In this document: positions 1-43,806 of the stretch, in pieces | How positions within the stretch are numbered: position 1 is the stretch's first letter | Layout of the letters: every line of letters starts with the position of its first letter | Virus record (IMG/VR): IMGVR_UViG_3300036401_000078 | Span: 1 to 43,806 of that record | Strand: one strand, 5' to 3' | DNA length: 43,806 nt | DNA from: a virus | The notes under the pieces: generated by a model | Told to the model about the DNA's origin: nothing | The model's input: only the letters and a program-made list of their open reading frames with translations | Databases searched by the model: none | Translations under genes and position numbers: made by a program

Positions 1-210
1 GCCGCGCAGGTCCGCGTCGCCCAGGTACGCGCCGCGCAGGTCCGCGTCGCCCAGGTACGCGTCGCCCAGGTCCGCGCCGCGCAGGTACGCGCCGCGCAGG
101 TACGCGCCGCGCAGGTACGCGCCGCCCAGGTACGCGTCGCGCAGGTACGCGCCGCGCAGGTCCGCGCCGCGCAGGTCCGCGCCGCCCAGGTCCGCGCCGC
201 GCAGGTACGC
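1..210. repeat. 15-bp tandem repeat (14 units), coding
   Basis: Fourteen units of 15 bases start at 1, 16, 31 and so on to 196. Differences are confined to three places: the Tyr/Asp codon (gta or gtc on the plus strand) and two bases in the preceding six (gccgcg, gtcgcc, gccgcc or gtcgcg). Bases 7-101 are identical to 43650-43744, a 95-base perfect repeat. This is where a short-read assembler would be expected to break or collapse copies. Confidence 0.95.
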
Positions 211-312
211 GCCGCGCTTCGCTGCCTCGACAGCACACTCTTTGGCGGTCGTCGCTGTCTCGCTGTGGCACAGAACGGCTCCGGTGAGCCGGTGTTTAAT
301 ATCGTAACTCAT
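1..312 (-). CDS. Pentapeptide-repeat protein, N-terminal part (continues at the other window end)
   Basis: The ATG at 312-310 overlaps the stop of the upstream gene by 4 bases. The first ~32 residues are a non-repeat leader (MSYDIKHRLTG...). Fourteen 15-base units then encode the pentapeptide A-[D/Y]-L-[R/G]-[G/D], and the frame runs off the window at base 1. Pentapeptide repeats fold into a right-handed quadrilateral beta-helix; Qnr/MfpA-type members mimic DNA and bind gyrase, but no such role can be shown here. The C-terminal part is at 43254-43805. Merging the 13 identical bases at the two window ends gives one in-frame protein of about 283 residues with about 25 repeats. True copy number is uncertain because the units are almost identical. 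Confidence 0.8.
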   Translation of the reverse strand, partial: MSYDIKHRLTGAVLCHSETATTAKECAVEAAKRGAYLRGADLGGADLRGADLRGAYLRDAYLGGAYLRGAYLRGAYLRGADLGDAYLGDADLRGAYLGDADLRG

Positions 313-584
313 GAGTTGTTATCCGGGTGTTCGGCGGCCTGGCGCAAGCGGGCGGCGAGCGTGTCGTTGCACCAACCGCTCTCGGCATGCACCGACGCTT
401 CGTGGATCAGACCACGATCAACGAGCACAAACCCCGCCCGCGCGGCGGCGGCGAGGGCGGCTTCGATTAGGTCGCTGTCCGGCAGCTTCGTCCGCGTTTC
501 GTACGGATCGCGCCAGTATTCTTCACGTTCGCCAGCCATAGCCGATGCCATCGCTTCCAGGAGGGGCGGGGGGATCATGGTCAT
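309..584 (-). CDS. Hypothetical protein (91 aa), repressor operon
   Basis: I do not recognise this protein. The start overlaps the XRE gene stop (581-584) and the stop overlaps the pentapeptide start (309-312), so translation is probably coupled through all three genes. It has acidic and alanine-rich helical stretches and no membrane segment. A short AGAGG-like Shine-Dalgarno precedes the ATG. Its place between the repressor and the pentapeptide gene suggests an early or lysogeny-time accessory role, which is inference. Confidence 0.8.
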   Translation of the reverse strand: MTMIPPPLLEAMASAMAGEREEYWRDPYETRTKLPDSDLIEAALAAAARAGFVLVDRGLIHEASVHAESGWCNDTLAARLRQAAEHPDNNS

Positions 585-784
585 ATCCTCTCAATCAGAA
601 CCAGCGGTGACACGCCCAGCGCCCGAGCCAGGCGCTTGAGCGCCTTAATCCCCGGCACCCGTCCGTTCTCGTATTGAGCCGTGCTCCCGGGCGGAAGCCC
701 GGCGGTCTCGTCCAGGTGCGGCTGCGTCCAGCCTTTCACCGCGCGATGCTTCTTGATGATCGAGGCAATGCCCGTGTCGCTCAT
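581..784 (-). CDS. XRE/Cro-CI family HTH transcriptional regulator (67 aa)
   Basis: This compact protein is a single helix-turn-helix domain of the XRE type: an N-terminal helix (SIIKKHRAVKGWTQ), the turn region with LPPGSTAQYENGRV, then helices ending in LARALGVSPL. There is no C-terminal dimerisation or autocleavage domain, so it resembles Cro or small plasmid and phage regulators rather than lambda CI. It is transcribed divergently from the early plus-strand genes that begin at 862. A perfect 16-bp dyad and three GGCGTCA copies lie in the 77-base gap. It heads the minus-strand operon that runs through the window join. Confidence 0.88.
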   Translation of the reverse strand: MSDTGIASIIKKHRAVKGWTQPHLDETAGLPPGSTAQYENGRVPGIKALKRLARALGVSPLVLIERI

Positions 785-10235: not shown

Positions 10236-12503
10236 TCAGGTCCCCGTGTCCCCGGCCAGGACCCAGACGGCCGCCGATCCTGCGTTGGACTCACAGATCA
10301 GGGTGCAGACGGCGTACTGGCCGGCGCTCTTGGTCTGGCTCTGACGATTGCGCAGGGTGCCGCCAGCGGCGGCGGTGAAGGTGATCTGACCGGCGCCCTT
10401 CTGGTAGACCGTGACCGAGTAGCCAACATCGGCCGTCGCATGCAGCGTCAGCGTGATCGCGCTGGCATTCGACATGGTCAGCACCGTGCCGCGCTCGGTC
10501 GCGCTGAGCGTCCGCGCCGTGCTCGTGTCAGCGATCACCACGGCCAGGAAGTTGCTGAAGGTGTTGGCCTTCCAGTCCGCCAACTCGGCCGCGGCTTGGG
10601 TCTGGGTGATGGCGGTCGGCGCGGCGGATGCGCCGGTGGCATTGGCCACGAACGTGTGCGCGGCCTGAGTCGCCAGACCCGTGAGTGGCACCGCATCGGT
10701 CAGGGTCGATCCCGCCGCCGGAACCGTGATGTTGGCCGTCCCGTTGAAGCTGACGCCATTGATGTTCCGTGCCGTCTGGAGGGCCGTCGCCGTGGCCGCA
10801 TTGCCCGTGGTCGAGCCCGAGGAGCCGCTCACTGAACCGGTAGCCACGCCGATGTTGGGGGTGGTCAGGACTGGCGATGTCGCGCGGACCAAGCCGCCGG
10901 TGCCGGTCGTAGACGCGCCGCCCAGGTTGTTAGCAGCCGTGGCCGCGTTCTGGAGATCGGACAGGTTGCTCGCAGCCTGAAGCGCACCGGTGATCCGGGA
11001 ATCGTTGCCCTGGGCCGCTGTCCCTGAGCCCGTGCCGTAGTTGACCGAGAAGACCGTCCCCGTCAGCGTCAGGCCCGTACCGGCCGAGTAGCTGCCTGCC
11101 TGGCTGAACTGGACCCAGGTCATGGCGGTCACGTCGATGGTACCGCTGACCGGCGAGGTATTCGCCCAGCCCGAGGCGGACTGCAACGTGCCGCTCTGGA
11201 TGAAGATGAACGAGCCGGGGACTTCGGCCCACACGTCCATGTCGGTGGCGCGCGTCCAGGCACCGGCGCCGGTGTCGTAGACGCCATTCTGTGCCGGCAG
11301 CGTCTGATCCTTCACCAGGACGCGGGATGCGCTGGTCAGGACGCCGTCGATGGTCTGCTCGCCGGTGAGCACCAAGTTCCCGGTGGATGCCACGAGGGCC
11401 GGCGTGTGGGGCGTCAGGCCAACGGCCACGCTGTCCGCGTACGCCTTGGTCGCGATGTCCTGGGGCGAGACCGGATCCGAGACCTGCGCGCGTCCATTGG
11501 TATCGCGCTGGATGATCGCGAATGCCGTATTGGTTGCCGAGGCGTCGTCCAGGATCTGCTTATCCGCCCCCGACATCAGGCCGCTATTGCCGCTCGCGAC
11601 CGCATCGGCGATCGTGTCGCCACCGCTGGTAATGTGCGTGGCCGCATGGGCGCTCGGGGGAATGGTGATGTTCGCGGAACCGTTGAACGAGACGCCGTTG
11701 ATGGTGCGCGGCGTGGTCAGGGTATTCGCCGACCCGGCCGTGGTGGCGCTGCCGGCGGTGGTAGCGGATCCCGCGGTGGTAGCGGATCCTGCCGTGGTCG
11801 CGCTCGTCGCCGTGGTCGCGCTGGTCGCCGTGGCCGCGTTCCCACTGATGTTCCCGGTATCCCGAAGCTCGATCAGGTTGGCATCAGAGACCGAGATGTT
11901 CGGATTCGCCCCGCCCGACGATGACAGCCCGCCATTGGCGGTGACCGAGTTGACGACGCCGGCTCCGGCTTCGACCGTGGCCCAGGTGGGACTGTCGATC
12001 GTGCCCCGGTTGATGAAGAGCGCAGCCCCGGTGAAGTTGTGGTAGAGCGACGAGGGGGCGGCGAATCCGGCGCCGGTGACGCCATCGACCGGATCGCCAT
12101 CGCCCGACATCAGGAAGACGCCATTGGCGAGTTCCAGGAACTGCGTCACCAGACCCTGGCTGGTGGCTTCCGCAACCGTGTCTCCCTGCGGGTTGGTCGC
12201 GACCACGGCAATCACCGGGTCGACCAGATCGGTTAGGGTGACCGTGGCCGTACCCGAGGTGTAATCGGTGCAGTTCCAGCGATAGGTGCCCTGGGGCCGG
12301 ATGATGGCCACGGCCAGGATATCGGTGGTCGTGAGGACCGTTTCCCAGGTCTGCCCACCGTTGACCGTTCGCTGAAGCACCAGCGTTGCCACGAATGTAC
12401 CGGTCACGCTGTAGGACCCGGTCTGCGGCACGGCATTGAACGGCGCCAAGTACAGCGCGGGCGACGTGCCGGTTGCGGTAAAGTCGAAGCTGATGTCAGT
12501 CAT
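10236..12503 (-). CDS. Tail fibre protein A (755 aa)
   Basis: The ATG at 12503 (MTDISFDF) is chosen; a TTG 36 bases upstream is an alternative and neither has a strong Shine-Dalgarno. Order: N-terminal beta domain (~1-95); Ala/Thr/Ser-rich shaft with five GSATTA-type hexapeptides near residues 225-255; two INGVSFNG(S/T)ANIT(I/V) units; a domain with VLVKDQTLPAQNGVY typical of phage fibres; and a C-terminal cap ending in CTLICESN. It should form trimers and contact the host surface. First gene of the inverted fibre cassette. Confidence 0.87.
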   Translation of the reverse strand: MTDISFDFTATGTSPALYLAPFNAVPQTGSYSVTGTFVATLVLQRTVNGGQTWETVLTTTDILAVAIIRPQGTYRWNCTDYTSGTATVTLTDLVDPVIAVVATNPQGDTVAEATSQGLVTQFLELANGVFLMSGDGDPVDGVTGAGFAAPSSLYHNFTGAALFINRGTIDSPTWATVEAGAGVVNSVTANGGLSSSGGANPNISVSDANLIELRDTGNISGNAATATSATTATSATTAGSATTAGSATTAGSATTAGSANTLTTPRTINGVSFNGSANITIPPSAHAATHITSGGDTIADAVASGNSGLMSGADKQILDDASATNTAFAIIQRDTNGRAQVSDPVSPQDIATKAYADSVAVGLTPHTPALVASTGNLVLTGEQTIDGVLTSASRVLVKDQTLPAQNGVYDTGAGAWTRATDMDVWAEVPGSFIFIQSGTLQSASGWANTSPVSGTIDVTAMTWVQFSQAGSYSAGTGLTLTGTVFSVNYGTGSGTAAQGNDSRITGALQAASNLSDLQNAATAANNLGGASTTGTGGLVRATSPVLTTPNIGVATGSVSGSSGSTTGNAATATALQTARNINGVSFNGTANITVPAAGSTLTDAVPLTGLATQAAHTFVANATGASAAPTAITQTQAAAELADWKANTFSNFLAVVIADTSTARTLSATERGTVLTMSNASAITLTLHATADVGYSVTVYQKGAGQITFTAAAGGTLRNRQSQTKSAGQYAVCTLICESNAGSAAVWVLAGDTGT
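11731..11838. repeat. Short coding repeats (GSATTA hexapeptides) in tail fibre A
   Basis: Tandem 18-base-like units on the minus strand encode SATTAG repeats. Some copies are exact at DNA level, including two ggtagcggatcc copies. Such units can expand or contract and change fibre length. Confidence 0.7.
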
Positions 12504-12661
12504 AGCCGATGGTGTACGCCGATCGCTCTTCCGCAGCAAGGGGAGCCGGTGCTCTTATCGTTACATTTGAAACATGCGTACGTGTGATCGTTATCTCGGT
12601 ATCGCATGCTGGTCTTGCATGAACAAAGCGCCGGACGTAGGTTCCCGTCTACGGAGCGCGC
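12504..12661. promoter_or_regulatory. Divergent intergenic region with candidate promoters
   Basis: This 158-base gap separates the minus-strand fibre cassette from the plus-strand virion operon, so it should hold promoters for both. It contains the most AT-rich patch nearby (12555-12600). A TTGAAA hexamer sits at 12567-12572 with only a poor -10 candidate downstream. The heptamer ATCGTTA occurs at 12557-12563 and 12587-12593. No ORF or terminator is seen. Confidence 0.35.
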
Positions 12662-23425: not shown

Positions 23426-25363
23426 ATGCCCGACACGCCCCAAGAGGAAGCCCGGATCCAGCCCGACGTCAGCCCGAGCGCGGCGCTGCCCTTGGCGGCC
23501 ACGCCCCAGGCGTTCGGCGCCGGCATTGGCGAAGGCGTGCAGCAGGTTGGCGACGTCGCCCACGAGCTGCACCTGAAGGCCCAGCGGATGGCGGATCGCT
23601 CAGCCATCCTGGACGCCGACAACCAGACCAACCAGTTCCAGTACCAGCGGCTGTACGACGCGCGGACGGGGCTGCTGCATCAGAACCCCGGGCGCAATGC
23701 GCCGGCCCTGGTCGACCAGACGCTCGCCGACTACGACAAGCACGTGTCCCAGGTCTCGGCGGGACTCGCCGACGATCGCCAGCGGCTGGCCTATCAGCGC
23801 ATGGCGAACAATCGCCGGTACGAGATGGAGCGGACGCTCGGTCAGTTCGAGCATAACGAGACGACCCGGGACGCGGATGAGGTCGACCAAGCAGCCATCG
23901 CCGGGGCGACGACCAATGCCGTCACGGCGGCGGGATCGCCGGTGCAGTCGCCGTTGCGTCCCTGGCAGCAGGTGTCCACCGACAGCATCGACCGCATCAA
24001 GGCGGTGGTGCAGGATCAGGGCGAGCGCCACGGGCTGAGCCCGGACGTGGTCAAGGAGCGGCAAGGCATTGCCGTCAGCCAAGCGCAGCTCGGGATCCTC
24101 CACCAACTGGTGGCGACCGGGAAAGACCAGTACGCCAAAGGCTGGTATGATGACCACCGCGGGGACTTCACGGCGCAGGATTCGCCCGCTGCCGCGCGCC
24201 TGGTCGAGGCTGGTTCGATCGCCGGGGAATCGCAGCGCATCTCGGACGAGATCGGCCGTGGCGATGATGGGAACTACGTCGACCGGCTGACGCTGGAAAA
24301 GCGCATCAGCGAAGACCCGCGCCTTCAGGCGGACCCGAAGCTGCGCGAAGCCGTCGAGACGAGAACGGCGCAGCAGCTCGATCATCACGAGCGCGCGGTG
24401 AGCGAATCCCAGAAAGCGGTTTTCGATCGCGCGTACGAGATCACCACGGATCCGGACAACCCGCGTGGGTCGTACGACGACCGCGTGGTGGCGATGCGCG
24501 CGGAGATGACACCGCAGCAGCGGGAGTTCATCGACAACGCCAACGCCAAGTCGAGCCGCAACCCGGATCTGACCAACCAGCTCATGGTCCAGGCCGCGAA
24601 GGACCCGGACGGCTTCCTGAAGACCCTTCAGGATCCGACGATGCTCGCGCAGGTGGGCAGGAACGACTACCAGCGACTGAAGGTCGCGGCGGATCAGATT
24701 CGCAAGACCGGAACGATCGCCGAAGCGGCTGGCATCCTGACCAACCGCGAAGTTGAAGACGGGGCGCTGCGGGATGCTGGCTTTGCGGTGCAAGCCAAGA
24801 GCGGCCTGTTCGAGATCGACCGGAACTCTCCGGACGCCAGCAAGTTCCTCAGCTCGTACAACGCGCGCGTGACCGCGCAGGAGCAGGCCACCGGCCGAGC
24901 GGCGTCTCCCGTCGAGCGGCAGAAGATCGCCGACGAGATGGTCAAGCAGAACGTGGTCTCTCAGCCGGGCTTCTTCAAGCAGCCCTTGCAACCGGTCTAC
25001 AGGCTGACGCCGGCACAGCGGGACGCGGCGACCCGCAATCTGGACGACTTCGCGAAGCTCGACCCGCTCCGTGCGGCGCAGATGCGACATGGCCTTTCGA
25101 CCATGGCGAGTGGCCTGGGCGTTCCCTCCGATCGACTCACGCCCGACCAGTACAATCGCGCCTTTGCCCAACAGGTCATCGCCACGGATCTCAAGCTGTC
25201 CGGTGATCGCGATGGAGCGATTCGAGCGATGGAGCGAGCCAAGGCGATCCTGAAGGAAGCGGCGACGCCGCCGATCCCCGGGTCGGTCCCCGGCATTCCC
25301 CGAGGCAAGCCCGCGCGGAAGCCGAAGCAGGTCGGCGGCATCCCGATCGACGACGAGACCTAA
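23426..25363 (+). CDS. Putative internal virion (ejection) protein, gp15-like (645 aa)
   Basis: Almost entirely helical and polar, with many Gln, Arg and Asp residues and no membrane segment. It has a Pro-rich basic tail (GIPRGKPARKPKQVGG). Size and location between the gp14-like and giant proteins fit the middle ejection protein of podoviruses. Its TAA shares one base with the next ATG, so translation is probably coupled. Confidence 0.72.
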   Translation: MPDTPQEEARIQPDVSPSAALPLAATPQAFGAGIGEGVQQVGDVAHELHLKAQRMADRSAILDADNQTNQFQYQRLYDARTGLLHQNPGRNAPALVDQTLADYDKHVSQVSAGLADDRQRLAYQRMANNRRYEMERTLGQFEHNETTRDADEVDQAAIAGATTNAVTAAGSPVQSPLRPWQQVSTDSIDRIKAVVQDQGERHGLSPDVVKERQGIAVSQAQLGILHQLVATGKDQYAKGWYDDHRGDFTAQDSPAAARLVEAGSIAGESQRISDEIGRGDDGNYVDRLTLEKRISEDPRLQADPKLREAVETRTAQQLDHHERAVSESQKAVFDRAYEITTDPDNPRGSYDDRVVAMRAEMTPQQREFIDNANAKSSRNPDLTNQLMVQAAKDPDGFLKTLQDPTMLAQVGRNDYQRLKVAADQIRKTGTIAEAAGILTNREVEDGALRDAGFAVQAKSGLFEIDRNSPDASKFLSSYNARVTAQEQATGRAASPVERQKIADEMVKQNVVSQPGFFKQPLQPVYRLTPAQRDAATRNLDDFAKLDPLRAAQMRHGLSTMASGLGVPSDRLTPDQYNRAFAQQVIATDLKLSGDRDGAIRAMERAKAILKEAATPPIPGSVPGIPRGKPARKPKQVGGIPIDDET

Positions 25364-28300
25364 TGCCGACCCCGGATCAGGAACTGGACGCCTTCACGAA
25401 TCCGCCACCGGTTCCGCAACCGGAGACGAGCCCCCCTGCGCCCATTCCGTTTCCCAAGCCGGCGCCCGTCGCCAATCCGGATGCGGAGCTGGATGCCTTT
25501 GTCAATCTGGACAAGGACCAGGACCGCCTCAAGGCAGCGACGGCAGCCGGCCTGGAGCAGGACCCGGCTCGCGCCGCGAAGCTGATTCAATACTCCAACG
25601 CGCTCAATGTCCCGACCGAGTTTGTCGATCGGAACTTCGATGCGTTGCAGGCCGCGGTTCGCCAGAAGGACTTCGACCCCGAGACGTTCCGGCGGGAGTC
25701 CCCGATCGTCGCGCAATGGCTCTCCGAAGATCCTGCCCGGGTCGGACTGACGCGGGACGACCTCCCGGCGTTCGCGAGCATCGAGCGGCTGGTGCGATCC
25801 TCGCCTGACTACCGGTACGGTCCCGATGGGTCGATTCATGAGATCCTGCCGGGCGGCGCGTACTCGACCATCTACGCCAACCCGATGGAACTCCACCGGG
25901 CCTTGGTCAAGCGTGGGCTTCTCCAGGACGAGGCGCAATCGCGCGTGGAGGGCATCCAGCGCGATCAGTACTTCGGCTCCTTCGGGGCCGGCTTTGTCGC
26001 TGATCTCGCGAGCACGCTCTCGGCCCTCCACCGCCTGGGCGGGGATCAGGACGAGGCCAACCGCTTCGCGGAGATCGGCGGGGAGCAGATCTCCGCCTCG
26101 ATCGAATCGAGCCCCGGGCTTGCCGGGACCCTTGGACGTGGGTTCGGCGGACTCGCCGCGCAGCTTCCCCTGTTGGCGGTGGGCGGCCCCGTAGCCCGTG
26201 GGGCCGAGGCCCTGATGAAGGCCCGCATGGTCGGGACGGCGCTGGCGCCGATCCTGGGAGAGGCCGGAACCGCTGCCCTGGAACGCGGCGTGGTCGGTGC
26301 CGCCACCATGCAGCCGATCGCGCTGCGGGGCGCGCTGAACGACGATCATGGCGTGGGGCATGCCCTGGGATCCTGGGCGATCGACTCAGCCATCGCGGGC
26401 GCGTTCCCGGCGGTGATCGGTGAGCAGGTCGGCGCGGCGCGCGGCATCGCTCGGGCGGCCGGCGTAGCGGTCGGTCCCGGCGAGGCCGAGCTATCGGCGG
26501 CCCAGGTGCTCCTGCGCCATACCGGGCTCGGCGCGTCCCAGAATCTGGCCTTCGACGTCGCGCACCGGATCCATGACGTCGCCTCCGGTGCCGATCCCAC
26601 GGCGATGGATTGGGACAAGCTCCTGCCGTCGCTGGCGGTATCGGGCATCCTGGGCGCCGCTCCGGGTGCGCTGTTCTCCCTGCCCGAAGCGGCCGCGGCT
26701 GCGCGCCAGGTCCACGACCGGGCCGGCATGGTCAAGATCAACGCGATCGCCGAGGCGGCGCACCATGCCGACACGCTGGATGCAGCAGCCAATGACTTCG
26801 CGGAAGCCAAGGCCAGCGCGCTCAACCAGGACGCGGTTCAAGGGCTGCTCCAGAAGATCGCCGGGGATACCCCCTACCGCACGCTGTACGTGGACGCCAG
26901 GGCGTGGCGGGATCACTTCAACGCGCCAGTGCCGGCGGAAGACGTCCCCAAGGAAACGTCGCTCCAAGCCTCGGTCGCACCGGATCCGACCGGCACCCTC
27001 GCGCGTGCCGCGGCGATCCAGGCCACTGGCGATCCCCTGGCCTACGACAAGGCGATCAGCACGGATGGCCAACTGGCCATCCCGTTCGACCGTTTCCTCC
27101 CGCTCCTCAACGATCCCGCACGCCATGACTTCCTGCGCGCCGAGGCTCGGGTGTCGCCCGAGGCGATGAACGAGCGTGAGGCGCATGGCGAGGTGAACGC
27201 GGCGACGACGACCGCCCAGGCCCAGGCAGCAGCCGCTGGACCAGGTACTCCGGAGGCTGACCGCGAGGCCTCGGCCGATCTCGTCCACGAAGACATCAAG
27301 CGGCAGCAGATCGAGGCCGGCGTCTCCGAGCCGGTGGCCGAGCGCGGCGCCAGTCTCTGGCGAGCCATCTTCCATACCGCCTCGGCCCGTGGTTGGACCA
27401 AGCTCCTGCCCCACGAACTCTATGCGCAGATGAAGGTCCGGATCGCCCGCGGCCTTCAGGCTCCCGGGGCTCGGGACGCTCTGGATGCGATGATCCTCCG
27501 CCTCAAGGCGGGGGAGATTCCGACCGAGGCGGACGTCCAGAAGGCCATGACGCAGCAGGAGGGCGAGACCGAGCGCCGTCCAACGGAAGACTCGACCCGC
27601 ATCCAACAGACCCGCGATGCCCTCCTGGGGATCCTAGAACACTTCCGCTCGGTGGGCGCTGACATCCAGAAGGAGACCCCGGAGCAGTTGAAGGCGCGCC
27701 TGGTCAAGGCCACCGACGAGGGGCAGGGCGACGCCTTTGAACAGCAGGCCGAAGGGCCGCAGGCACAGGGTCGTCCGATCGTCATCGCTGATGTCCCCTA
27801 CGGTGCCGGCTCATCTTCGGATGGCCGGACGGTCTACATCGATCGCCGCATTCCCCGCTTCTTGGAGATCGAGGGGAAGCGCGTCGACGTGCATCAGATG
27901 ATCGCCGAGCACGAGATCGCCGAAAAGACGCGGATGGATCGGGGCGAGTCCTACGCGCAGGCGCATGCCCAGGCCTTGGCCATCGAGGATGCGGAGATCG
28001 ATCACCAGGGCGTGAGCCATGAGGCCTACGAAAAGGCGCTGAAGCCGTACCTGGACGAGGCCAAGAGCGCAGCGGCAAAGGAAGGCATTCCTGCCGATCT
28101 GGAAGCGAAGCCGTACCACGACATGGGCGAAGGGCATTTGATCGCTGGGGCGACCGGCGAGGCCTACGCGCATCCGTACGAGCAGCGCACGCCCGCTATT
28201 GCCGGCATGAAGCTCACCGATGCCGAAGCCTTGCGCGCGCGTGCGGAAGCGCAGCGGCGCGGTGAACTTGGGAAGGTCGTCGATAAGGAGGCTCCGACCG

Positions 28301-31300
28301 GCGTGTTCCCGGCGCTTCGCCAGGAAAACGAGGGGGTTCCACGTGGAACCTTCCTCCCCCAGCGACTGAGCAAAACGGGCGAGAGCATCATCCGTCTATT
28401 GAAGGGTGCCGACCGGAGCACCTTCCTGCACGAGTCGGCCCACTTCCTGTTGGAGTTTCTCCACCATCTTGGGGATCAGGCCGATGCGCCCGCGGCGCTG
28501 AAGACCGACCTTGCCGGCATCCGGGAATGGCTGGGCGCCAAGGAAGGCGCGGCGATCACGCGGGAGCAGCACGAGTTGTTCGCGCGCGGGTTCGAGAAGT
28601 ACCTGATGGAAGGGAAGGCGCCGTCGCCCGTACTGCGCGGAGCGTTCGAGCGCTTCAAGCGTTGGCTGGTCGAGATCTACAAGTCCGACAGCGCGCTGAA
28701 CGTCCACCTGACGCCCGATGTGCGGCAGATCTTCGACCGCATCCTCGCGTCCGATGACGAGATCGCGGCGGCCCGTGCGGAGGTCGGCGCTGACCAGCCC
28801 TTCTACGAGAATCAGGCTGAAAGCGGGATGAACGACCAGCAATGGTCGGCCTATCTGAATCGGACCAAGGAAGGCCAGGACACCGCGCGGGCCATGCTGG
28901 AACGCGAAGTCATGGGACCGCTGCGGGCAGAAGAGACCAAGTCATACCAGGACGAGCGAGCCCGGGTGAAGCTCCAGGTCGCGGATCGGGTCAACCAGTC
29001 CCCGGTCTACACCGCGCTCCTGGTGCTTCAGAAGGGCGCTTGGCCCGAGGGCGTGGAGATCCCCGAGGGATCCGAGCGGGTGAAGCTCGACAAGTCGGAC
29101 CTCGTCAACCGCTACGGCGAGGCTGGGCTCGCGCTCCTGCCGGGACCGCAGGTCGAAGGTGAAGCACCGAAGGCCAACCGCGGACGTCGTCTCTACACGG
29201 AAGAGGGCGGGATCACGCTCGACGATGCGGCCGAACTCTTCGGCTTCCGCGATGGCGGATCGCTCTGGCATGCGCTCGTCAACGCTCCCGATCGTACGGC
29301 GGAGATCGAGCGGACCACTGACGCCGAGATGCGGGACCGTCGACCTGATCCCATGCTCGATGGGTCGTTGACCGAGAAGGCGCGCATCGCGGTCGCCAAC
29401 GATCCACGCTTGGAGGTGATGGACCGTGAGGCGGCCGCCCTGGCGATGCAGACCAAGCGGGCGGCGACCCCGTCGCAACTGCTTCGCGCCATCGCTCGCG
29501 CTCAGATCGAGAAGACACTAGCGCGCGACATCCGCCCCTCGCTCTACCGCGTGGCCATGGGTCGCGCCTCGCGAGCGGCGCTTGCGGCCAAGATCGAGGC
29601 CCGTCATGCGACCGATCCCGAGGCCAAGGCGAAGCTTCTGAACGAGGCGCTCCGCCAGAAGACGACCGAGATCCTGCAAACGCATCTCTACCGCGAGGCG
29701 TCCAAGGCGGTGGAGCAGTCCGAGAAGCGTCTGACCAAGGTACAGTCGTGGAACGACCTCGCCAAGCGGGCCAAGGTCGGCAAGGCCGGCGGCTGGGAGT
29801 GGACCGTCTCCTACCGCGATGCGCAGGGCAAGACGCAGTCGGAGGCGTTCACGTCGCTCGCCTACGGCGACTCGCCCGAGAAGGCGCAGCAAGCGGCGGT
29901 GGATCGCGCGACCAAACTCCCCGGTGCGGACGTGCAGCGTACCGGCTACCTGGAGCAAGCCGACGGCATCCTCGAAGGCTACGACCTCAAGCGGGTCTCC
30001 ACCGCGGCGCTCCAACGGCGCGAGGCGCTGCGCGATTTCATCGCCCGCAAGGAAGCCAACGACGAGCCGATCAACATCCCGACCGAGGTCGTGGAAGATC
30101 TCGGCCGGAAAAACTGGCGCGACCTGACCATCGCCGAGCAGACCGCGGTCGTCGACGCGCTCGACAACCTCCAGCACCTGGCCTACAAGAAAAACGACCT
30201 GCTGTCGTCCGAGCGGCGCGAGACGTTCACCGAATCGCGGGACGCTCAGATCGCCACCATCGTCAAGAACTCGCGTGGCGTGAAGCCCGAGAAGTCCGTC
30301 GGTTCCGGCATCCTCGACACCCCGGCCGACATCGCTGGGCGCTACTTCTCGTCCATGGCCACCGTCTCCCGCCTCGTGCGCGAGATGGACGGCTACCAGG
30401 ACGGCGGGGTGATGTTCGACACCTGGCTGCGCAAGGTGAACGAGGCCAACGATCGCGAGCTGGACCACAAGGAACGCTCCACCGAGAAGATGGCGGAACT
30501 CGTCAAGACGTGGGGCAAGTTGAAGCCAGGTTCGCCGGGCATGAGCATCCGACGGATGGAGCCGGCGATCGGCAAGACGATCAGCCATTGGGGCCGCATC
30601 ATGGTCGCGCTCAATTGGGGCAACGCGGACAACCGCGCGCGTCTCATGCAGAGCGAAGGCTGGACCGAGGGGCAGGTGCGCTCGGTGATGTCCAAGCTCG
30701 ACCAGCGCGACATGCGCTTCGTCCAGGGCATCCTCGACCATATCGATACGTACTGGCCCGAGATCAAGGCCAAGCAGGAGCGCGTCACCGGCATCGCCCC
30801 CGAGAAGGTCGACGCGGTTCCGATCCTGCACGAGACCGGGGTCTACCGCGGCGGCTACTTCCCGATCGCGTACGACCAGCGCTCCATGCCCAAGGGCAAG
30901 GACATGACGGTCGAGCAGCAGTCGCTGATGACCCGCAACGGGGCACGGCTGTTTGCCACGACGCAGCGCGGCCATACCGAGACCCGCACCGCCATGCCCG
31001 AGGGCGCGCGGGTGCTGTTGGATCCGAGCGTGATCACGCGACACCTGAACAACGTCGCGCATGATCTCGCGTATCATGAAACCCTGATCGATCTGAATCG
31101 CTTCCTCCGCGACAAGGATCTGCGCCAGACGATGATCGCCCATTGGGGCGCGGACGCGTACCGTCAGTTCCAGTCCCGTCTGACCGACGTGGCGGCCGGC
31201 GTGCAGGGCACCCACACCGGCATCGAGCAGGTGCTCGAATGGGGACGCCAGGGGGTCAACTTCGCTAACCGCGCGTTCAACCTCGGCTCGGCGCTTCAGC

Positions 31301-32274
31301 AGGCGGCGGGACTGCCGGCGTCGATCATCCGGGTCGGCCCCAAGCACTTCGCCAGCGCGCTCTACAAGATGTTCCGCAACCCCGCCGGGGCGGATAGCGT
31401 CTTCAAGTGGGTCGACGATCAGTCGATCATGATGCGCAACCGCTCGAAGACGTTCGACAAGAACATCAACGACGCGATGGGCGGGGTGAGCCTGCGCGGC
31501 CCGATCCGCAAGCTGATGGATGGCGCCGGGTACTACTTCTGGACCAAGGCGTTCCAGGTGCTGGACACCCACACCTGGCTGGCGTCCTACTCCAAGGCGA
31601 TGGAGGAACACGGCGGCGACGAGGGCAACGCCAAGGCCATTGCCGATCAGACCGTGACCGACATCCAAGGGTCCGGCGCGACCAAGGATCTCCCGGCCGT
31701 CATGCGCGGTGGACCGCTGGCGCAGGTCTTCACCTCCAACATGTCCTGGTGGCTGGCGAACTACAACCTGACCGCCGAGGCCATCAACCGGGCCAAGTCC
31801 GGGAAGATGTCCGACGTGCTCAAGTCGGGAGCTGATCTCTTCGTGCTCTACGGCGCGCAGGTGGCGGCCTGGTCGGCGCTCTCGGCGGCGCTCACCGGCA
31901 AGAACGAGAAGCAATGGGAAGAGGCGGCCGACAATCCCCTCGCGCTGGCCAAGACGCTGTCGAAGGACGCGGCCTATACCGCCCTGTCGTCCATGGTCCT
32001 CCTCCGCGACCTGGCGGACGTCGCCGTCGAGGGTCGGCAGTATCGTGGACCGCAGGGCCTCAAGTCCATGTCGCTGGTGGCGTCCGCCATCCAGGCGATC
32101 CGCAGCGATAGCGAGAACGCGGCGGAGGCGAAATCGGTGGCCAAGGCTGCGGGACTTATCCTGCACGTGCCTATCGCACAGATCGTCAGCACGGCCGAGG
32201 GGATCGTCGATGCATCCGAGAAGGGCGACAATCCGTTGTGGCCAGCGCTCTTTGGGAAAAGGCAATCGAAATGA
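25363..32274 (+). CDS. Giant ejection/polyvalent protein with HESAH metallopeptidase motif (2303 aa)
   Basis: Largest gene of the window. A Pro-rich start carries two DxELDAF motifs. Residues ~250-450 are Ala/Gly-rich and hydrophobic, suggesting membrane insertion on ejection. A zincin-like domain has H1023-E-S-A-H1027 and a later E1071 (HELFARGFEKYL), matching HExxH plus a distal glutamate. Long helical regions follow, with another amphipathic stretch near the C-terminus. I see no lytic transglycosylase motif as in T7 gp16. It resembles phage large polyvalent proteins; peptidase activity is predicted from the motif only. Confidence 0.85.
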   Translation: MPTPDQELDAFTNPPPVPQPETSPPAPIPFPKPAPVANPDAELDAFVNLDKDQDRLKAATAAGLEQDPARAAKLIQYSNALNVPTEFVDRNFDALQAAVRQKDFDPETFRRESPIVAQWLSEDPARVGLTRDDLPAFASIERLVRSSPDYRYGPDGSIHEILPGGAYSTIYANPMELHRALVKRGLLQDEAQSRVEGIQRDQYFGSFGAGFVADLASTLSALHRLGGDQDEANRFAEIGGEQISASIESSPGLAGTLGRGFGGLAAQLPLLAVGGPVARGAEALMKARMVGTALAPILGEAGTAALERGVVGAATMQPIALRGALNDDHGVGHALGSWAIDSAIAGAFPAVIGEQVGAARGIARAAGVAVGPGEAELSAAQVLLRHTGLGASQNLAFDVAHRIHDVASGADPTAMDWDKLLPSLAVSGILGAAPGALFSLPEAAAAARQVHDRAGMVKINAIAEAAHHADTLDAAANDFAEAKASALNQDAVQGLLQKIAGDTPYRTLYVDARAWRDHFNAPVPAEDVPKETSLQASVAPDPTGTLARAAAIQATGDPLAYDKAISTDGQLAIPFDRFLPLLNDPARHDFLRAEARVSPEAMNEREAHGEVNAATTTAQAQAAAAGPGTPEADREASADLVHEDIKRQQIEAGVSEPVAERGASLWRAIFHTASARGWTKLLPHELYAQMKVRIARGLQAPGARDALDAMILRLKAGEIPTEADVQKAMTQQEGETERRPTEDSTRIQQTRDALLGILEHFRSVGADIQKETPEQLKARLVKATDEGQGDAFEQQAEGPQAQGRPIVIADVPYGAGSSSDGRTVYIDRRIPRFLEIEGKRVDVHQMIAEHEIAEKTRMDRGESYAQAHAQALAIEDAEIDHQGVSHEAYEKALKPYLDEAKSAAAKEGIPADLEAKPYHDMGEGHLIAGATGEAYAHPYEQRTPAIAGMKLTDAEALRARAEAQRRGELGKVVDKEAPTGVFPALRQENEGVPRGTFLPQRLSKTGESIIRLLKGADRSTFLHESAHFLLEFLHHLGDQADAPAALKTDLAGIREWLGAKEGAAITREQHELFARGFEKYLMEGKAPSPVLRGAFERFKRWLVEIYKSDSALNVHLTPDVRQIFDRILASDDEIAAARAEVGADQPFYENQAESGMNDQQWSAYLNRTKEGQDTARAMLEREVMGPLRAEETKSYQDERARVKLQVADRVNQSPVYTALLVLQKGAWPEGVEIPEGSERVKLDKSDLVNRYGEAGLALLPGPQVEGEAPKANRGRRLYTEEGGITLDDAAELFGFRDGGSLWHALVNAPDRTAEIERTTDAEMRDRRPDPMLDGSLTEKARIAVANDPRLEVMDREAAALAMQTKRAATPSQLLRAIARAQIEKTLARDIRPSLYRVAMGRASRAALAAKIEARHATDPEAKAKLLNEALRQKTTEILQTHLYREASKAVEQSEKRLTKVQSWNDLAKRAKVGKAGGWEWTVSYRDAQGKTQSEAFTSLAYGDSPEKAQQAAVDRATKLPGADVQRTGYLEQADGILEGYDLKRVSTAALQRREALRDFIARKEANDEPINIPTEVVEDLGRKNWRDLTIAEQTAVVDALDNLQHLAYKKNDLLSSERRETFTESRDAQIATIVKNSRGVKPEKSVGSGILDTPADIAGRYFSSMATVSRLVREMDGYQDGGVMFDTWLRKVNEANDRELDHKERSTEKMAELVKTWGKLKPGSPGMSIRRMEPAIGKTISHWGRIMVALNWGNADNRARLMQSEGWTEGQVRSVMSKLDQRDMRFVQGILDHIDTYWPEIKAKQERVTGIAPEKVDAVPILHETGVYRGGYFPIAYDQRSMPKGKDMTVEQQSLMTRNGARLFATTQRGHTETRTAMPEGARVLLDPSVITRHLNNVAHDLAYHETLIDLNRFLRDKDLRQTMIAHWGADAYRQFQSRLTDVAAGVQGTHTGIEQVLEWGRQGVNFANRAFNLGSALQQAAGLPASIIRVGPKHFASALYKMFRNPAGADSVFKWVDDQSIMMRNRSKTFDKNINDAMGGVSLRGPIRKLMDGAGYYFWTKAFQVLDTHTWLASYSKAMEEHGGDEGNAKAIADQTVTDIQGSGATKDLPAVMRGGPLAQVFTSNMSWWLANYNLTAEAINRAKSGKMSDVLKSGADLFVLYGAQVAAWSALSAALTGKNEKQWEEAADNPLALAKTLSKDAAYTALSSMVLLRDLADVAVEGRQYRGPQGLKSMSLVASAIQAIRSDSENAAEAKSVAKAAGLILHVPIAQIVSTAEGIVDASEKGDNPLWPALFGKRQSK

Positions 32275-41674: not shown

Positions 41675-42379
41675 TCAACGTGACGCTGTCAAGGCGCCGG
41701 TGAGGATGAGCCAGGCAGCGGCTTTGCAGAGGGGCACGACGCCGTCGCCAACGGCCTCGAGCCGCTCGACCCGCTCGGCCAGCCCATCATCCATTCGTAG
41801 ATCGCGGGGGTCAGATTCCCAACACACTGCTTCAGGCGCCGGCAACTCGGCCACTTCATCATCGAAGGGCAGCACTGGTTCGCCTTGGTCGTCGGCGTGG
41901 CCAAGAGCCCAATATCGTCCGCGAGCATGTGGCGCACCCAGCGCGGCAGCGTCCAGGATGAGCGGACGCGACAGGGTGTATCCGAGGGTGCGGAGGTCGT
42001 CGCGAATCCGGGGATGCTCTGCTGCGAATCCTTCGACGCACTCGAGCATGACCCACTCCGGGCGGATCTCGCCAATGATGCGGGCGGTCGGATTCCAGAG
42101 GTCTTCGGGGTTCCCAGCGCCGCGACGGGCAGGAGACCACTTAGGACAAGGGACGCTCGCATGGACCAGATCCACTCGGCCCTGGTAGGCGGCACCGGAC
42201 CAGTCGTGAACGTCTCCACAGACGACCTCGATGTGAGGGAACCAGCCATCGCGCTGGCGCTGCTCGAGCACGTCGCATCGCCACCGATCGATCTCGAGGG
42301 CGAGCACGGGCTGGTGTCCGAGGATGAGGTCTCCATAGAAGGAGCCACCGCAGGCGGCGAAGAGACCGGCGGTACGCAT
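41675..42379 (-). CDS. C5 cytosine DNA methyltransferase (234 aa)
   Basis: Transfers methyl from S-adenosylmethionine to cytosine C5. Motif I is at the start (AGLFAACGGS), the catalytic Pro-Cys is P77-C78 in VPCPKWS, the ENV-like motif is E113-C-V, and H151-A-R153-G-R155 matches the QxRxR motif. VGDGVVP near the end is motif X. The target-recognition region is very short, so the enzyme is compact. The ATG at 42379 has a strong GGAGG leader. No restriction partner is present, so it probably protects phage DNA. Confidence 0.9.
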   Translation of the reverse strand: MRTAGLFAACGGSFYGDLILGHQPVLALEIDRWRCDVLEQRQRDGWFPHIEVVCGDVHDWSGAAYQGRVDLVHASVPCPKWSPARRGAGNPEDLWNPTARIIGEIRPEWVMLECVEGFAAEHPRIRDDLRTLGYTLSRPLILDAAALGAPHARGRYWALGHADDQGEPVLPFDDEVAELPAPEAVCWESDPRDLRMDDGLAERVERLEAVGDGVVPLCKAAAWLILTGALTASR

Positions 42380-42383
42380 TCGC

Positions 42384-42761
42384 TCACGCCCCCTCCCCCG
42401 GCACCCGGGGCGGCGGGGGTAATGGGCGCCAGTACATGGGCGTCGCCATGTCGTCATCGCGCGACCACCAGCGATTCCCGCTGCGATCGGCCACGGAGTA
42501 GGAAGTTGCGAGCGGGTCGGTCCAGATTCCATCGATCACCAGCACGTCCAACCCATCGACGGGCAGTCTGTCACCGCACGCCACCCACTCCCCGACCAAT
42601 CGCCCGCGCTGGGCGAGGCAAGCTAGGACCGCGTCGGCCATGGCGTAGACGCTGCCGAATCCGTTGGCCTGATCCCGCAGCGGCAGAAGCGCACGGGCAA
42701 CGGCATCCCGATCGCTCTCGGCCGGGCCTTGGTCGGTGTCGCCGGGCGGGGGAGGGGTCAT
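42384..42761 (-). CDS. DUF551-like protein (125 aa)
   Basis: The C-terminal ~70 residues follow the DUF551 pattern: GEWVACGDRLPVDGLDVLVI, a WW-containing middle and TPMYWRPLPPPP at the end. This domain is very common in phage early regions and has no assigned role. The N-terminal ~50 residues are helical (DRDAVARALLPLRDQANG). Overlaps the next gene by 4 bases; the methyltransferase start is 4 bases downstream of its stop. Confidence 0.82.
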   Translation of the reverse strand: MTPPPPGDTDQGPAESDRDAVARALLPLRDQANGFGSVYAMADAVLACLAQRGRLVGEWVACGDRLPVDGLDVLVIDGIWTDPLATSYSVADRSGNRWWSRDDDMATPMYWRPLPPPPRVPGEGA

Positions 42762-42994: not shown

Positions 42995-43257
42995 GCCCCA
43001 CCCCCTTTGTTGCTCTCGGCGCCGGCGAGGGCGCGGATGTAATCGGCGCAGTCTAGGCAACCGCCCGCATAGCCGAGGTGCCAGCGGTCGTCCGTGTTTG
43101 GCGGCACGCTGTTGTCTGCGATGGTGGCGCACAGAACCGCCGCCTCCTCAATCGCTGCCGCGCGGGCGTCGGATTGGATGGCACGGATGATGCCCTCGTC
43201 GTCGAGGTGCTCCTCGCCGCTGCACATGCGGTCCAGCCATTCCTGCGGGGTCCTCAT
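42991..43257 (-). CDS. Hypothetical protein (88 aa)
   Basis: The ATG at 43257 overlaps the stop of the pentapeptide gene. Order: helix (TPQEWLDRMCSGEEHLDDEG), helix (IRAIQSDARAAAIEEAAVLC), then a Cys-containing C-terminus (GGCLDCADYIRALAG) that may bind metal. The middle resembles a helical segment seen in many phage proteins. The function is unknown. Confidence 0.7.
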   Translation of the reverse strand: MRTPQEWLDRMCSGEEHLDDEGIIRAIQSDARAAAIEEAAVLCATIADNSVPPNTDDRWHLGYAGGCLDCADYIRALAGAESNKGGGA

Positions 43258-43805
43258 GTCGTTGCCCCATCCCCGGCGGCCTGGCGCTCCCGCTCCGCGC
43301 ACGCTTTGATGTCCGCCATCGCATCCGCGTCGTTGGCAAAGAAGTCGGCCGTCCGGAAGTCGGGATCAGACTCGCGGTAGATCATTCGAGCAGCGGTTGC
43401 GGGGCCGAATCGCTTTTCCAGATCCTTGCCCTCCGCGCCCGCGAGAGTCGTGATCCATCCCGCACGGCAATGCGTCGTCTCGCAGGTGTGCCACGCATTC
43501 ATGTCAAGGCGGCAGCCTTCGGCCGAGAGCGCGGCGAGCAACTTCTGGTGGATACCAGCGATCTTCGGCACGACCGGTCGCGGCTCCGCGATGCGAGCGG
43601 CCAGCGTTTTCTCGTCGATGCCTTTGACGCCGCCCAGGTCCGCGTCGCCCAGGTCCGCGTCGCCCAGGTACGCGCCGCGCAGGTCCGCGTCGCCCAGGTA
43701 CGCGTCGCCCAGGTCCGCGCCGCGCAGGTACGCGCCGCGCAGGTCCGCGTCGCCCAGGTACGCGCCGCCCAGGTCCGCGCCGCGCAGGTACGCGCCGCGC
43801 AGGTC
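43254..43805 (-). CDS. Pentapeptide-repeat protein, C-terminal part
   Basis: Frame open from the window edge: eleven more A-[D/Y]-L-x-x units, then a linker and a separate ~105-residue domain with CETTHCRAGWITTLAG, where Cys and His could bind metal, and FGPATAARMIYRESDPDF. A similar C/H-rich domain often follows pentapeptide repeats in phage proteins I have seen, but its role is unknown. It joins in frame to the N-terminal part at 1-312 when the 13 identical terminal bases are merged. Confidence 0.82.
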   Translation of the reverse strand, partial: DLRGAYLRGADLGGAYLGDADLRGAYLRGADLGDAYLGDADLRGAYLGDADLGDADLGGVKGIDEKTLAARIAEPRPVVPKIAGIHQKLLAALSAEGCRLDMNAWHTCETTHCRAGWITTLAGAEGKDLEKRFGPATAARMIYRESDPDFRTADFFANDADAMADIKACAERERQAAGDGATT

Positions 43806-43806
43806 C
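43629..43806. repeat. 15-bp tandem repeat, right-end part
   Basis: Eleven complete 15-base units from 43629 to 43793 plus a final 13 bases equal to bases 1-13 of the window. Units differ only at the positions described for the left end. Bases 43650-43744 equal 7-101. Confidence 0.95.

Follow-up and report, generated by a model that had tools for sequence, protein, structure and literature searches.

The two ends of the window, by which we mean the whole stretch of 43,806 nucleotides analyzed here, are two halves of a single gene that encodes an N-terminal cap, a pentapeptide β-solenoid, and a helical C-terminal domain (C-domain). Its striking trait, beyond the mere uniformity of the repeat units, is that variation is confined to outward-facing residues, and in relatives whole 15-bp units are gained and lost against an almost constant phage background, so that the surface of the protein changes much faster than the remainder of the virus. 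With a probability of roughly 0.6, we read this as a split rod gene in which units are exchanged and exposed residues are selected, the product being an accessory binding surface used in conflict. The evolutionary part of this explanation, that is, turnover of units and selection at exposed sites, is well supported, and the solenoid would have a binding function.

A search of the whole window with the minus-strand pattern GCGKACCTGSGCGRC returned 25 exact 15-bp units, all of them at positions 1 to 210 and 43629 to 43793 and none elsewhere, compared to a mean of 0.19 and a maximum of 2 in shuffled sequences. Part 1 of the array (positions 1 to 210, minus strand; PF00805, E = 7.6e-32) contains 14 units, and part 2 (positions 43629 to 43806, minus strand; PF00805, E = 5.8e-19) contains 11 complete units (43629 to 43793) and 13 bases of another. 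The two gene pieces score 108.9 and 67.8 bits, respectively, against the PF00805 cut-off of 20.2 bits, and Tandem Repeats Finder gave period-15 scores of 329 and 253 for the two ends. An earlier note, made from the letters of the window, had described about 25 nearly homogenized 15-bp units with almost unchanged synonymous sites; this agrees with the count above and with a synonymous difference of exactly 0 among the 25 units (nonsynonymous difference, 0.144). It had placed the array at positions 1 to 215, where it is indeed found, but only by half, the other half lying at 43629 to 43806. The units vary at three separate single bases (GAC/TAC, CGC/GGC, and GGC/GAC), and all three changes alter the amino acid. 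The Asp/Tyr codon had been recognized as variable, but the Arg-Gly/Gly-Asp pair is not linked as proposed, since 7 of the 8 possible combinations are present (AYLRG, 6 units; ADLRG, 6; AYLGD, 5; ADLGG, 3; ADLGD, 3; AYLRD, 1; AYLGG, 1). As had also been noted, the 95 bp at positions 7 to 101 are exactly those at 43650 to 43744. This is the longest match shared by both ends, and an equally long shared block of whole units arose in 0.5% of shuffles of the order of the 25 units. It may be a true block duplication, which would then resemble a long block repeat inside a 46-unit Bordetella array, or a single stretch of a circular genome may have been read at each end.

The left gene piece starts with the ATG at position 312, encodes the cap (MSYDIKHRLTGAVLCHSETATTAKECAVEAAKRG; positions 211 to 312, minus strand), which was read from the translation, is common to 15 relatives, and was modeled as a hairpin plus helix, and then reads out of the contig. 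In the right piece, the array reads in and the gene ends at position 43254, past the C-domain (positions 43254 to 43628, minus strand, including the stop codon; motif WHTCETTHCRAGW), which is defined by a match to phrog_31265, an alignment of 74 sequences, and a helical model. We assign the two pieces to one gene because the phrog_31265 profile matches both (E = 7.3e-23 and E = 3.2e-37), because intact relatives encode cap, array, and C-domain within one reading frame, and because the records of relatives show the same pattern of breaks. The contig ends overlap exactly by 13 bp only; joining them end to end breaks the reading frame, and merging them across the 13 bp yields 25 units and a protein of 283 amino acids, although the true number of units is not fixed by the contig. 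The source record (IMGVR_UViG_3300036401_000078) is classed as linear. The phage encodes an Sf6-like small terminase and an epsilon15-like connector, for which a circularly permuted genome is expected, and the window would represent an epsilon15-like phage genome, circular or circularly permuted, that was broken within the tandem array during assembly.

Relatives were collected by a search with a three-sequence alignment, which yielded 80 loci; searches with single sequences gave no IMG/VR relative and no near DNA match among phages, and the one genome match from a single-sequence search was discarded as spurious, as it lies within an unrelated long open reading frame (ORF). At 20 of the 80 loci, no more than 500 bp separate the C-domain of a relative from the contig end on its array side; for the opposite side, this is so at 4 of 80. 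Eleven such near-end records were checked for pentapeptides: three (G061, G067, and G068) have arrays at both ends, and two (G070 and G063) have an array at one end and a cut C-terminal piece at the other. At least five further IMG/VR records break inside the array as well, and the window is an instance of a general assembly failure. These five records (behind loci L036, L065, L072, L029, and L043, respectively) are classed as linear, yet they look like circular phage genomes that were opened in the pentapeptide array. Completeness tests that use end repeats will miss such genomes, and where short-read assemblies break in arrays, circular genomes of phages are recorded as linear, the gene is split, and a widespread gene is hidden from annotation.

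The structure predicted for the left piece (pLDDT, 87) consists of a hairpin and a helix followed by a regular solenoid with the geometry of a right-handed quadrilateral β-helix. The solenoid model superimposes on Np275/Np276 with 0.5 Å over 64 residues and on several pentapeptide crystal structures with 0.5 to 0.9 Å over 60 to 69 residues; the fold matches include MfpA and QnrB, and the β-helix proposed in the earlier note is backed by the model. Pentapeptide-repeat proteins are defined by at least 8 contiguous consensus units (PMC8145042), and the window has 14 and 11. In such proteins, residues 1 and 3 of the unit point inward (PMC10886550), and the variable positions 2, 4, and 5 are therefore expected to face outward. 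The cap and the first units are 45 to 62% identical to those of 15 relatives. In the C-domain, the alignment of 74 sequences has invariant residues M42, C48, T50, H52, C53, G56, G63, G66, A78, and F95, and the predicted model is all-helical (pLDDT, 86). The C-domain matched no Pfam family and had no significant PDB match in a fold search; in BFVD, the only close match was a 74-residue protein (35% identical) that, judged by its length, is probably the fragment from Flavobacterium phage FL-1. In FL-1 (L002:2630-3316), the C-domain is read in two frames and only the fragment is annotated, and the array gene there looks broken or mis-sequenced.

The solenoid shares its fold with DNA-mimicking pentapeptide proteins of the Qnr/MfpA kind, and the gene product might likewise bind host gyrase or another DNA-binding protein, its length and surface mattering loosely. 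Net charge would agree, being negative in 38 of 41 pentapeptide arrays, but the median is just −0.45 per unit and Arg is common. The left piece, which is only half of the protein, stays below the cut-offs with 16.1 of 240 bits for Qnr and 36.7 of 360 bits for MfpA, and a complete Bordetella relative reaches 71.6 of 240 and 71.2 of 360 bits. A fixed mimic, moreover, would not be expected to pile up variation at exposed sites, and we give this explanation a small share of the probability.

Across the relatives, codons are uniform inside each array and different between phages, as expected for concerted evolution. The synonymous difference is 0 in 28 of the 41 pentapeptide arrays (median nonsynonymous difference, 0.135), and when two codons within an array specify the same residue, they are identical in 99% of such pairs, compared to 34% for the C-domains of these genes. 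Over 70 arrays, 298 distinct variant codons were nonsynonymous and 13 synonymous, with a single-base opportunity of 1854:663 (binomial P of about 3e-25, with variants in different phages counted as independent, which they are not fully). Buried Ala and Leu residues are fixed, and exposed positions vary. Comparing relative to relative, pN was lower than pS in all five informative pairs of N-terminal caps and in four of six pairs of C-domains; the L068/L081 C-domains differ by three nonsynonymous and zero synonymous changes, and L071/L073 shows no change in either. As a small cellular control, five plasmid-borne pentapeptide proteins had pS values of 0.3 to 0.7 and lacked the codon pattern of the arrays; plasmid-borne proteins were used because a search for chromosomal controls in one phylum gave no matches. 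Judged from these comparisons of sequences, the pattern suggests that selection acts at the protein level and that exchange between units keeps the array uniform. The array had been called recently expanded or homogenized in the earlier note; homogenization holds, but recency does not, since the same architecture occurs in many phages with different codons. That each of these phages has its own uniform codon set suggests that the array is old and in continuous turnover.

Turnover of the repeats could also be neutral, with slippage expanding and contracting the array without consequence and the residues drifting. Whole-unit insertions and deletions (see below) fit this, as does a mostly random order of units: block repeats exceeded the shuffle expectation in 22 of 66 arrays, the order otherwise looked random, and linkage between variable sites within units was mixed and often absent. 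However, neutral turnover predicts about 26% synonymous variants, compared to the 4% seen; it also does not account for fixed buried residues beside variable exposed ones or for the retention of the C-domain in many unrelated phages. It is strongly disfavored, and we consider it unlikely.

A run of overlapping genes begins with a Cro/CI-type helix-turn-helix regulator (positions 581 to 784, minus strand; PF01381, E = 2.1e-07; phrog_8 and phrog_4) and has the array gene in third position. The gene directly upstream of the array gene (positions 309 to 584, minus strand), for which family profile searches gave no match, overlaps the start of the array gene at 309 to 312. A RecT gene lies on the diverging side of this run, a C5-cytosine DNA methylase (PF00145) is encoded at positions 41675 to 42532 on the same (minus) strand as the array gene, and a promoter scan near the array gene found none. 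The array gene is located downstream of a repressor in Bordetella phage IFTN6 and also in the Acba phages, and the upstream neighbors in IMG/VR relatives are diverse, including repressors, helicases, annealing proteins, methylases, and one Acb2/Tad1. RecT was not supported as a general partner, as it was matched in just 1 of 12 relatives' records; a related connector was likewise found in 1 of 12, and the array gene therefore occurs in unrelated phages independently of RecT. Elsewhere in the window, a 2,303-amino-acid ORF (positions 25363 to 32274) matches phrog_9880 (function unknown; E = 3.4e-264), and short 18-bp tandem repeats (positions 11734 to 11838) lie in a minus-strand ORF (positions 10236 to 12539) that matches head-decoration and tail-fiber families.

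The same C-domain also follows arrays of 9-bp C-S-x tripeptides, with frozen Cys and Ser codons and variable D/G/R/Y/N (e.g., L011, L059, and L084), and one phage contig (L031:1-2415) has two adjacent copies of the gene. Cap and homogeneous pentapeptide array are also found on three other, unrelated-looking C-terminal domains, in RW (L085), the Acba phages (L089 to L097), and IFTN6 (L088), so that the module swaps its C-terminal part.

Nine cultured Acinetobacter phages show zero mismatches over 2.2 kb downstream of the array and nevertheless have six different arrays, of 21 (four phages), 23, 23 (in a different order), 26, 28, and 35 units; once start-codon choice is allowed for, the Acba isolates differ by multiples of 15 bp. 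Over 50 kb, Caulobacter phages RW and GB2A have 8 mismatches, and the array of GB2A is shorter by 25 units. Their 375-bp deletion has been reported (PMC11053796), the array itself not being analyzed there; this is a useful precedent, and a literature search for concerted evolution, hypervariability, or repeat number of pentapeptide arrays in phages found nothing on this subject. Three Bordetella relatives (L004, L047, and L053) have 46, 17, and 23 units between flanks that are 93 to 99% identical, and in two metagenome contigs, which are identical over 8.0 kb, the tripeptide arrays number 25 and 28 units, a difference that could include assembly error, as arrays derived from metagenomes may contain errors. 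The earlier note had proposed that repeat number may vary between virions, and the variation seen here is between nearly identical phages with this kind of gene. It had also suggested comparing unit order between related phages: number and order do differ in the Acinetobacter set, but Caulobacter phages RW and RLK, isolated far apart, have an identical 47-unit array. Array change need therefore not be frequent and may be rare, which speaks against fast turnover. Since the C-terminal domains of RW, GB2A, and the Acba phages differ from that of the window, unit turnover is not tied to the window-type C-domain. Frame switching by the repeats is not indicated, the units being 15 bp long and RW and GB2A differing by 375 bp.

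Being rigid, variable in length, and conserved at its ends, the rod might instead be a spacer or ruler, as a structural or virion part in which length matters and the surface does not. The gene, however, sits among regulator and recombination genes and away from the tail genes, and its exposed residues are under selection. Unit number, moreover, ignores the four-unit coil of the helix: complete arrays fall into remainders 0 to 3 modulo 4 with counts of 8, 9, 10, and 4, with no preference for multiples of four. We regard a spacer as quite improbable. That defined codons alone vary would fit dedicated mutagenesis, such as a diversity-generating retroelement rewriting exposed codons, but the window has no match to reverse transcriptase (PF00078), the changes go beyond template adenines (C/G and G/T variants in the window and all types of nucleotide change among the variants of the 70 arrays), and isolates differ mainly by whole units, so that such a mechanism is very hard to credit. 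Nor is there much chance that the array, the order of its units, or the 95-bp duplication arose from collapsed or chained short reads: both contig ends lie in the array and align over 163 bp with 7 mismatches, as overlapping readings or two alleles could do, but arrays of this kind are present unbroken in complete cultured genomes, and an artifact would touch no more than the unit number, the unit order close to the contig ends, and the 95-bp duplication, leaving the array as such in place.

Most simply, the gene would provide an accessory, variable binding surface for use in conflict. The product of the array gene would be a rod, composed of a small cap, a right-handed pentapeptide β-solenoid of perhaps about 25 units, and the helical C-domain. 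Unequal recombination or slippage between units would keep the DNA uniform and shuffle the units, and selection would favor a mixed and changing set of exposed residues. As an accessory phage gene that is probably expressed early, it would most likely provide a fast-evolving binding surface against host defenses or rival phages, and the conserved C-domain would anchor the rod or act as its effector. Against a binding surface, the order of units shows no face preference and the exposed residues show no clear periodicity along the solenoid (lags 1 to 12), so that no single defined binding site is indicated, and the C-domain has no fold match hinting at function. More tentatively, the module of cap, pentapeptide or C-S-x solenoid, and C-domain, exchangeable among many unrelated phages, could be a combinatorial recognition surface, in which a few exposed residues per unit are shuffled by recombination, so that every phage lineage acquires a new binding specificity directed at a factor of the host or of a rival phage. 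If the binding-surface reading is right, this is a rapidly remodeled phage surface protein in which the changing sites are evident directly from the sequence, and its function could be tested with the natural pairs RW/GB2A and the Acba set.

The window gene belongs to the pentapeptide family and to phrog_31265, as a variant with a hypervariable array. Like the PF00805 proteins Np275/Np276, HetL, MfpA, and Qnr, it has the consensus A(D/N)LXX and a predicted right-handed, four-sided β-helix. Unlike the PF00805 proteins tested, which are plasmid-borne, its units are synonymously identical and vary at exposed residues only; in addition, unit number varies between near-identical phages carrying this kind of gene, and the window protein has an extra C-domain that belongs to no Pfam family. 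phrog_31265 (function unknown) covers both array and C-domain and is matched by all 74 C-domain relatives, but its description does not include a hypervariable array. The Caulobacter RW/GB2A protein shares the order of cap, homogeneous pentapeptide array, and C-terminal domain, with a 25-unit deletion separating the two phages, and differs in the sequences of cap and C-terminal domain. TAL-effector arrays and the leucine-rich arrays of lamprey VLRs likewise consist of near-identical solenoid units that vary at exposed sites and are altered by recombination. The window array differs from these in fold and unit size and has no known ligand or code; the likeness, which extends to the combinatorial surface considered above, is one of principle only.
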